From positions 1 to 6,414 of the forward strand of contig JALGWK010000109.1 of the NCBI GenBank assembly GCA_025774205.1: a stretch of DNA of 6,414 nucleotides. The letters are read 5' to 3'. A program made the position numbers and the translations under genes. Source of the stretch: a bacterium (GTDB taxonomy: Bacteria > Blakebacterota > Blakebacteria > Blakebacterales > Blakebacteraceae). How positions within the stretch are numbered: position 1 is the stretch's first letter; each line of letters opens with the position of its first letter. Below, piece by piece: positions 1,486-3,470 of the stretch. The notes below the pieces were generated by a model. That model saw only the letters and a list, made by a program, of their open reading frames with translations. It was not told the DNA's origin and did no database searches.

Positions 1486-2712
1486 GTGCCTGACGCGCCA
1501 GCGGTCTCCCACGCGCTGATCGTCGATCCCGTCGCCGTCCTCTGTGTCCTGGCGGCGGTGGTCTTCGTGTCGGTCCGGCTGGAGGAGCGCTTCAGCTTCT
1601 TCCGGTCCCTCGGCGCCGCCCTGGTCGGGATCCTCATCGGGATGCTCCTCTCCAACCTGGGTGTGATCCCCGGGGAATCCCCCACCTATGCGTTTCTGGT
1701 AGGGCCGGGTGTGAGTGTGGGCATCGCCCTCATCCTGTTGAGCGTCGACGTCCGCTCGATCCTGCAGGCCGGTCCGACGATGCTGGCGGCCTTCGGGATC
1801 GGGGCAGCGGGTACGGCCATCGGGGCGGTTCTCTTCGGGCTGCTCCTTTCGGGACAGGTGGGTCCCGAGACCTGGAAACTGACGGGGCAGTTCACCGGCA
1901 CCTATACCGGCGGGGGGATGAACTTCGCCGCCCTCGGGCAAGCCCTCGAGACCAGCAGTGACCTCTTCACCGCCGCGATCGCGGCCGACGTCATCGTGAC
2001 CGCCATCTGGATGGCGACCTGTCTCGCGGTCCCCGTCCTGCTGGGACGACCGAAACACTCCCCCACCCTTCCTGAATCCGATCCCGGTCCGGGACCGGCT
2101 GAACCAGCCGAAAAGGCCGAACCGGCTGGGAAAACCGAACCGGATGAGAAGACCGAGACCCTGGAACAGGCCCTCCACTCGAGCGGGAGGCCGGTCACCC
2201 TCTCCGACGCCGCCGCCATGGTGATGATCGCGGTTGGCGCGGTCTGGCTCTCGGGAAAACTGGCCGTTCTGCTTCCGGTCTTCCCCGGGGTGCTCTGGCT
2301 GACCACCATCGTACTCGCTGTCGCCCAGATACCGGCCGTCAAGAAGATCTCAGGTGGCGCCATGTGGGGCAACTACCTGGTCCTGCTCTTCCTGGCCAGC
2401 AACGGGGCGCAGTCGGTGGTCGCGAACATCGTCCGACACGGCCCGGCGGTCTTCTGGTTCGCCGGCGGAACCGTGCTGATACATGGGATCTTCATATTCG
2501 GGGTGGGACGCCTGTTGCGGATAGATCTGCCCACACTGGCCGTGGCCTCGCAGGCAAACGTAGGCGGAGCAGCCTCAGCCATGGCAATGGCCAGCGCCCG
2601 GGGATACGGCGACCGCCTCCTCCCAGGCGTCATCGTCGGCCTGCTGGGGTACGCGATCGGCAACTACGCCGGCTACGCGATCGCGATGCTCATGCGGGGA
2701 TGGCTAGTCTGA
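1486..2712 (+). CDS. DUF819-family multi-pass membrane protein, probable transporter
   Basis: The protein has 408 residues with about ten hydrophobic segments (roughly 11-30, 41-61, 69-86, 98-122, 160-186, 242-264, 266-283, 294-314, 321-341, 377-400). The Gly-rich stretch FTGTYTGGGMNFAALG (136-151) in the first half and SQANVGGAASAMAMA (355-369) in the second are the marks by which I assign DUF819. They look like paired re-entrant segments of a two-half transporter, similar in idea to other secondary carriers; that parallel is inference. Between the halves, residues 189-228 form a hydrophilic Pro/Glu/Lys linker with a loose repeat (EPAEKAEPAGKTEPDEKTE), longer than I would expect. The GTG at 1486 is chosen because a stop at 1468-1470 closes the frame just upstream and the first in-frame ATG falls inside helix 2. 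No good Shine-Dalgarno precedes it. Its place after the oxidoreductase and epimerase genes suggests it carries their substrate or product. Its tail overlaps the convergent peroxiredoxin gene by 9 bp. Confidence 0.82.
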   Translation: MPDAPAVSHALIVDPVAVLCVLAAVVFVSVRLEERFSFFRSLGAALVGILIGMLLSNLGVIPGESPTYAFLVGPGVSVGIALILLSVDVRSILQAGPTMLAAFGIGAAGTAIGAVLFGLLLSGQVGPETWKLTGQFTGTYTGGGMNFAALGQALETSSDLFTAAIAADVIVTAIWMATCLAVPVLLGRPKHSPTLPESDPGPGPAEPAEKAEPAGKTEPDEKTETLEQALHSSGRPVTLSDAAAMVMIAVGAVWLSGKLAVLLPVFPGVLWLTTIVLAVAQIPAVKKISGGAMWGNYLVLLFLASNGAQSVVANIVRHGPAVFWFAGGTVLIHGIFIFGVGRLLRIDLPTLAVASQANVGGAASAMAMASARGYGDRLLPGVIVGLLGYAIGNYAGYAIAMLMRGWLV

Positions 2713-3312
2713 CGCCATATCGGTCGTCCAGACCTCCCACACCTTCCCGACCAGATCGGGTCCCGGTTTGAGGGTCATCTTCCCGGGCTTCCATCCTGAT
2801 GGAGTCGCCTCACCGCCTTTGGTCTCCCTCACCAGCTGGAATGCCTGGACCTGGCGCAGTGTTTCGGACACGTTCCTTCCAACCGGCGGCGTCAGGACTT
2901 CGAAGCCCTGTACTATCCCGTCGGGATCGATGATGAAACGGCCCCGCGTCTCGACCCCGGCATCCTCGTCGTATATCCCGTAGACCTCTCCGACTTTCCC
3001 ACCGGCATCGGAGAGCATGGGATAGGGGATCCCTCCCTCCACCATCTTTGAGAGCTCGTGGTCGTTCCACATCTTATGGACGAACACGCTGTCCACACTC
3101 ATCGACATCACATCCACACCCAGTTCCCGGAATTTGCTGTAGTTATCGGCGACCGCCGATACCTCGGTCGCTCAGACGAAGGTGAAATCGCCCGGGTAGA
3201 AACAGAGTACGACCCAGTTCCCCAGATGGTCTGACAGCTTCTCCTCGGTGAACGCCCCGTTGTGGTAGGCCGGGGCGACGAAATCTGGCGCGGGCTTGCC
3301 TACTCTGATCAT
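2704..3312 (-). CDS. prxU: Selenocysteine-containing peroxiredoxin (PrxU type); in-frame TGA at 3174-3172 read as Sec47
   Basis: Reading through one TGA gives a continuous 202-residue peroxiredoxin of the AhpC/2-Cys Prx family. The first part, [20 protein letters not shown], is a typical Prx N terminus. The active-site loop reads [18 protein letters not shown], so the PxxxTxxC motif is met by Pro40, Thr44 and the TGA-encoded residue 47. The rest stays in frame and conserved: [13 protein letters not shown] (70-82), IPYPMLSD (95-102), and [12 protein letters not shown] (121-132), in which Arg123 is the likely catalytic arginine. In 2-Cys enzymes the resolving Cys sits in a GEVCP-like motif; here that region is GEATPSGW (167-174) with Thr170, and no cysteine follows residue 47. 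The only Cys is Cys37. It should reduce H2O2 or organic peroxides in the cytoplasm, using thioredoxin, glutaredoxin or a low-molecular-weight thiol as reductant (inference). ATG 3312 is preceded by GGGAAGGAC. A SECIS-like hairpin follows the TGA. A pseudogene is the main alternative, but a single stop placed exactly at the catalytic residue argues strongly against it. Confidence 0.93.
3144..3161 (-). promoter_or_regulatory. Bacterial SECIS-like hairpin downstream of the Sec UGA codon
   Basis: On the minus strand the mRNA reads TATCGGC-GGTC-GCCGATA: a perfect 7-bp stem with a four-base GGUC apical loop. Ten bases separate the UGA (3174-3172) from the stem, and the loop starts at the 18th base after the UGA. 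In known bacterial SECIS elements the apical loop lies roughly 16-37 nt past the UGA and has a G among its first two bases; the E. coli fdhF element has a GGUCU loop at nearly the same distance. SelB carrying Sec-tRNA would bind here. The hairpin lies within codons for residues 51-57, so the sequence serves both protein and RNA structure. Confidence 0.85.
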
Positions 3313-3317
3313 CTTGT

Positions 3318-3326
3318 GTCCTTCCC
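3318..3326 (-). promoter_or_regulatory. Ribosome binding site of the selenoprotein peroxiredoxin gene
   Basis: GGGAAGGAC on the minus strand contains AAGGA (3323-3319) with six bases to the ATG at 3312. It fixes the start at [11 protein letters not shown], which is the normal N terminus of the family. The frame is also open upstream of this ATG, but that stretch is Pro/Gly-rich, low in resemblance to any Prx, and lacks its own ribosome binding site. Confidence 0.8.
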
Positions 3327-3338
3327 TGATAACTGGTA

Positions 3339-3353
3339 CCGGTTCTTCACCGG
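3339..3353. repeat. Short inverted repeat in the peroxiredoxin leader (5-bp arms)
   Basis: CCGGT-TCTTC-ACCGG lies 27 bp upstream of the peroxiredoxin start codon. As RNA it would make a 5-bp GC-rich stem with a five-base loop just before the ribosome binding site. It is short enough to be chance in GC-rich DNA. It is listed because two longer dyads lie in the same leader. Confidence 0.4.
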
Positions 3354-3373
3354 GTGATTCGACCGGGGCCCCT

Positions 3374-3393
3374 CCGACAGGTCCACCTGTCGG
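3374..3393. promoter_or_regulatory. 9-bp inverted repeat upstream of the peroxiredoxin gene, possible operator
   Basis: CCGACAGGT-CC-ACCTGTCGG is a perfect 9+9 dyad with a 2-bp centre, 62-81 bp upstream of the start codon at 3312. The tight centre and 20-bp span fit a site for a dimeric helix-turn-helix repressor better than a strong RNA hairpin. I do not recognise the half-site as a known regulator's box. No convincing -35/-10 pair could be placed beside it. Confidence 0.5.
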
Positions 3394-3470
3394 CCGGGCG
3401 CACCCCGCGGCCGGTTTTTCAGCCACTTCGGACCTCCATTCTGTCTCAGGTGGGTATAACGGGCACGGCA

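Follow-up and report, generated by a model that had tools for sequence, protein, structure and literature searches.

The window analysed here, a stretch of DNA of 6,414 nucleotides, carries on its minus strand a gene that almost certainly encodes a selenoprotein peroxiredoxin of the PrxU family. On the sequence evidence, the UGA at 3174-3172 is predicted to be read as selenocysteine, directed by a SECIS hairpin, SelB and tRNA-Sec. The gene and its core are laid out as follows:

2704-3426, minus strand: long prxU reading frame of 240 residues with a GTG start, a TAG stop and selenocysteine at residue 85 (translated with TGA as U; matches NF040737; start conserved in 79 genes)
2704-3312, minus strand: core peroxiredoxin frame from an inner ATG, 202 residues with selenocysteine at residue 47 (inner ATG invariant in 81 genes)
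3172-3174, minus strand: selenocysteine TGA codon at the peroxidatic position, Sec47 of the core and Sec85 of the long form (TGA in 81 of 81 genes)
3202-3204, minus strand: Cys37, the only cysteine of the core (invariant in the close set of 81 genes)

A sequence-only reading of this DNA had joined two minus-strand pieces into one peroxiredoxin frame, 3312-2704, broken only by the TGA, and had placed that codon exactly at the C of PxxxTxxC. Sequence and translation both bear this out: the TGA is the sole in-frame interruption, no frameshift is present, and the codon is the 47th of a 202-residue frame that ends in TAG. When the TGA is read through, the core matches the AhpC-TSA domain (residues 4-135, E 5e-36), the Redoxin domain and the 1-cysPrx_C domain (157-194). 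The alignment with human peroxiredoxin 2 spans residues 3-186, with the TGA falling exactly on the peroxidatic cysteine, and the predicted structure has a Prx1/AhpC core whose best Foldseek matches are Prx2 and AhpC (E 3e-20 to 5e-19). By homology, then, the predicted product has the Prx1/AhpC fold and uses selenocysteine as its peroxidatic residue. The assignment to PrxU, a family that the sequence-only reading had named as known, agrees with a score of 403.3 bits against NCBIfam model NF040737 (cut-off 270); the name of this model includes thioredoxin-dependent peroxidase activity, and membership here is by profile score and the TxxU codon. The enzyme had been called easily missed; it is less hidden than that, as a curated NCBI PrxU model exists, and since the NF040737 alignment begins at profile position 2, the model already covers the N-terminal tail described below.

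Relatives of the gene were collected by a search of a species-genome collection, from which the best 80 of 573 were taken, all full-length and 75-95% identical, giving 81 genes with that of the window. Among the phyla represented in these best 80 of 573 are Thermodesulfobacteriota, Krumholzibacteriota, Fibrobacterota, Spirochaetota, Nitrospirota, Calditrichota, Cloacimonadota and others. The suspicion that the TGA arose through a sequencing error or marks a pseudogene could draw on the state of the genome, a draft assembly of 527 contigs with 4.8% contamination. Against it, codon 47 is TGA in all 81 genes, the SECIS hairpin is conserved, and the core differs from its nearest relative by 61 synonymous and 10 non-synonymous codons. 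We give this explanation practically no weight, and the relatives' TGA rules it out. The column had been singled out in advance as the place to look for a TGC or TGT misread as TGA; the TGA is genuine, and a read error is ruled out because the same codon is shared by another genome of the genus and by genes from many other phyla.

Still more improbable is a recoded genome in which TGA is read as sense everywhere, a proposal for which no support was found. Each of the five neighbouring genes looked at in the window stops at TGA, which makes it an ordinary stop here and rules out a genome-wide recoding. The same conclusion is favoured by the tRNA-Sec and SelB of the genome, and by the many relatives in which the prxU gene itself terminates with TGA.

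A hairpin suited to recoding lies immediately downstream of the UGA:

3144-3161, minus strand: bSECIS hairpin with a 7-bp stem and apical loop GGUC, 17 nt after the UGA (covariation, RNAalifold and bSECIS rules)

In E. coli fdhF, SelB likewise recognises a GGUC loop. Across the stem columns of a 50-sequence alignment, 98.6% of cells are paired and 46 double-sided changes are observed, as against 9.7 in shuffles. The stem covariation score is 0.368, compared with 0.077 when shuffled and at most 0.110 when the partner is slid by 1-3 columns; RNAalifold recovers the identical stem. Across the genes the loop is GGUC or AGUU, its internal G and U being constant in all 81 while the outer G/C covary to A/U. 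Published rules for bSECIS elements call for a loop of 3-9 nt with a G in the first two positions, a stem of 4-16 bp, a distance of 16-37 nt from the UGA and a minimum free energy of at most -7.5 kcal/mol (PMC13188914). The hairpin conforms to all of them, with its 4-nt GGUC loop, 7-bp stem, 17-nt spacing and energy of -13.2 kcal/mol. That single-sequence energy is modestly below shuffles (z -1.56), and besides this modest value we found no evidence against selenocysteine. An Rfam scan of the window gave no match.

The decoding machinery, named by the sequence-only reading as selA, selB, selC and selD, was found in the genome in its entirety. The tRNA-Sec scores 65.9 bits (gathering score 47) and has the anticodon TCA according to ARAGORN; SelB scores 342.7 bits in one frame; SelA, at 353 and 138 bits, is a single gene divided between two contig ends that overlap. 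SelD lies in two pieces on two contigs, a split that leaves each slightly below the cut-off. The first of these pieces (L134, contig C412) reads TCAGUASKLG, which is of the selenocysteine type; the SelD of this genome is thus a selenoprotein itself, with selenocysteine in the active site. Both tRNA-Sec and SelB are likewise present in the same-genus genome. SelB exceeds its cut-off in 31 of 36 tested genomes with PrxU above cut-off, a weak test as SelB is common in genomes without PrxU too. Among PrxU genomes at least 90% complete, 23 of 24 pass, the exception being G094, a genome rated 100% complete whose PrxU gene (L163) has the TGA and in which no SelB exceeds the family cut-off, perhaps owing to contamination or because its SelB is divergent. 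In the window, the UGA at 3174-3172 would be decoded as selenocysteine through the downstream hairpin, SelB and tRNA-Sec. The claim that the gene encodes a selenoprotein is upheld by the TGA in 81 of 81 genes, the covarying SECIS and the presence of tRNA-Sec, SelA, SelB and SelD.

PrxU is accompanied by other selenocysteine peroxiredoxins. A second one is present in the same genome (L133 and L132, contigs C164 and C225) and in the same-genus genome (L139); it has the C-terminal resolving cysteine, and the usually invariant Pro of PxxxTxxU is replaced by Arg (FYRADFTFVU). At another locus (L182; G093, contig C521), two selenocysteine peroxiredoxin genes stand in tandem; both lack the GCARPTGG tail, and the second has a signal-peptide-like start.

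The sequence-only reading had proposed a selenoprotein of 202 residues. The nature of the product holds, and its length does not: the frame stays open upstream of the inner ATG as far as a conserved in-frame start, GTG 3426-3424, which adds a cysteine-bearing tail of 38 residues. The features of this extension are:

3433-3437, minus strand: upstream ribosome-binding site GGAGG, 6 nt before GTG 3426 (Shine-Dalgarno-like motif in 73 of 79 genes)
3313-3426, minus strand: N-terminal tail of 38 residues (no stops in 79 genes; protein-level constraint at CARPTGG)
3400-3402, minus strand: Cys9 of the long form, the invariant cysteine of the tail motif GCARPTGG (column C9 invariant)

As the conserved upstream start has its own ribosome-binding site, the coding region is taken to be 2704-3426 and the longest product to have 240 residues. 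Between the tail cysteine and the inner Met, 2,350 codons from 79 genes contain no stop. The Cys, Arg, Pro and Gly of CARPTG are kept in 79 of 79 genes while the third codon positions vary freely, which indicates selection at the protein level. In every relative with enough upstream DNA, the tail opens with a motif resembling M[AP] plus 14 further letters, followed by a variable charged linker. GCARPTGG was not found elsewhere in the genome, occurring in this gene alone. In the monomer model the tail has a pLDDT below 50 and is predicted to be flexible or disordered, so that the model is uninformative on docking to the active site, with which such disorder is compatible.

The inner start, too, is conserved. 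The ATG at 3312 is invariant in 81 genes and is preceded by the following element:

3319-3323, minus strand: inner ribosome-binding-like site AAGGA before ATG 3312, weaker than the AAGGAGG of most relatives

GGAG or GAGG occurs before the inner ATG in 75 of 80 genes, compared with 10% of core positions and 19% of tail positions, and GGAG is found at -13 in 67 of 80. Two products are therefore probably made, the tailed form of 240 residues and a form of 202 residues from the inner ATG. It is conceivable, and we lean against it, that only the tailed form is made, the inner site being left over from an ancestral start or arising as a by-product of the Lys-Glu linker. In favour of this, it is the long form that the NCBI model describes, the site in the window is weak, and the tail-less homologue L174 has such a site ahead of its start too, meaning that it may be inherited. 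Such a single-product gene would have to be reconciled with the retention of the site in 75 of 80 genes from many phyla and with codon choice: in the last six linker positions, Glu is encoded 80 times by GAG and 23 times by GAA, as against 74 and 191 in the remaining linker (p 3.5e-18), and this use of GAG and AAG, unlike that of the remaining linker, points to continuing selection at the nucleotide level. Since the inner site is found both in the sister clade of the tailed genes and in L174, the inner start seems to be an ancestral one that remains under selection. The window is among the genes that lack the full GGAG core at this site, and with only AAGGA its short form may be less well made.

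Two such forms, if both are made, would differ in the residue available to resolve the oxidised selenium. Compared with typical 2-Cys Prx1/AhpC enzymes (human Prx2, Salmonella AhpC), the protein is alike in fold, in alignment over the whole core and in active-site signature; it differs in having selenocysteine for the peroxidatic cysteine, a cysteine-bearing N-terminal tail and no C-terminal resolving cysteine (VCP motif), the position of which is occupied as follows:

2803-2805, minus strand: Thr170 at the usual position of the C-terminal resolving cysteine (EATPSGW as against EVCPAGW; Prx2 alignment)

Every one of the 81 close-set genes has Thr or Ala here. In a tree, tailed genes without the C-terminal cysteine form a clade of 91 rows (support 100/98), whose sister clade has selenocysteine, tail and C-terminal cysteine together; most deeper selenocysteine homologues have the C-terminal cysteine and no GCARPTGG tail. 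This order, in which the tail came first and the C-terminal cysteine was then lost, fits a swap of one resolving cysteine for another. As few independent events are involved, the apparent link between presence of the tail and loss of the cysteine is suggestive only. Three secreted-looking selenocysteine peroxiredoxins without the C-terminal cysteine bear another N-terminal cysteine, in a VLGxCG motif. At these loci (L174_1/L183, L184 and L185), the VLGxCG cysteine comes after a signal-peptide-like stretch.

We tentatively propose that the invariant tail cysteine stands in for the C-terminal resolving cysteine. As expected from peroxiredoxin chemistry, Sec47 would attack hydrogen peroxide or an organic peroxide and be converted to a selenenic acid. 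In the 240-residue form, the tail cysteine would then form a selenenylsulfide with the selenocysteine, in place of the missing C-terminal cysteine, and this bond would be reduced by thioredoxin or another thiol. That the tandem starts serve to provide a tailed form with its own tethered resolving cysteine alongside a tail-less form needing an external reductant is an extension that we consider rather unlikely. Three observations count against the tail as the resolving group: the sister clade combines it with the C-terminal cysteine, L174 (the same gene as L183_1) is a selenocysteine homologue with neither, and the monomer model leaves it disordered. A conserved gene neighbourhood naming a reductant was not found, as among 18 loci only one close pair shares neighbours.

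The sister clade and L174 also favour a different mechanism, which is a real possibility. The protein may be a one-Sec enzyme whose oxidised selenium takes its electrons straight from an external thiol or hydrogen sulfide, while the tail cysteine links subunits or docks a partner, as exemplified by the N-terminal cysteine of human Prx4. The lack of a C-terminal resolving cysteine in the core is in keeping with this, as are the many hosts that bear names of sulfate-reducing groups. Sulfide is known to reduce oxidised Prx6-type enzymes very rapidly (PMC12697902). However, the core here has the Prx1-type Tyr-Pro and not the His of the Prx6-type enzymes studied with sulfide (PMC12697902), and both the invariant CARPTG and the N-terminal cysteine of the secreted-looking homologues without a C-terminal cysteine fit a resolving role.

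A selenocysteine-containing peroxiredoxin, PrxU, was reportedly described in Eubacterium acidaminophilum by Soehling et al. in 2001. PrxU genes were also noted in Desulfotignum phosphitoxidans and D. autotrophicum (PMC4046663), and "Peroxiredoxin (Prx), TxxU" appears in selenoprotein reviews of 2022 and 2026. With PrxU as modelled in NF040737, the protein shares the selenocysteine at the peroxidatic position of PxxxTxxU, the Prx/AhpC domain and the tail, which is part of the NCBI model. Other thioredoxin-fold selenoproteins include the Prx-like thiol:disulfide oxidoreductases (UxxC/UxxU) and Prx-SUH (PMC13188914). The present protein differs from the former in having TxxU and no UxxC, and the Prx-SUH model, scored on a relative, gives 21 bits against a cut-off of 298. 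Like human peroxiredoxin 4, it combines a Prx1-type core with a cysteine-bearing N-terminal extension, and Prx4 C51A entries are among the structure-search matches. Prx4 is a secretory protein that retains both catalytic cysteines. The gene is thus a plain member of the known PrxU family, with its gene model extended upstream. In the literature searched, which did not extend to the founding 2001 paper, nothing was found on the tail cysteine, the GCARPTGG motif or tandem starts, and we do not claim that the cysteine or the starts are unreported.

This gene offers a clear example of UGA recoding from a lineage about which little is known, and its relatives show that PrxU is widespread across phyla. 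Annotation of such genes must handle both the TGA and the upstream start, as the protein is otherwise cut twice. The tail cysteine, the lost resolving cysteine and the second conserved start together constitute a specific and testable hypothesis on the recycling of a selenoenzyme. If true, the two-form scheme would complete the peroxiredoxin cycle in an unusual manner, and would do so across many anaerobic phyla.
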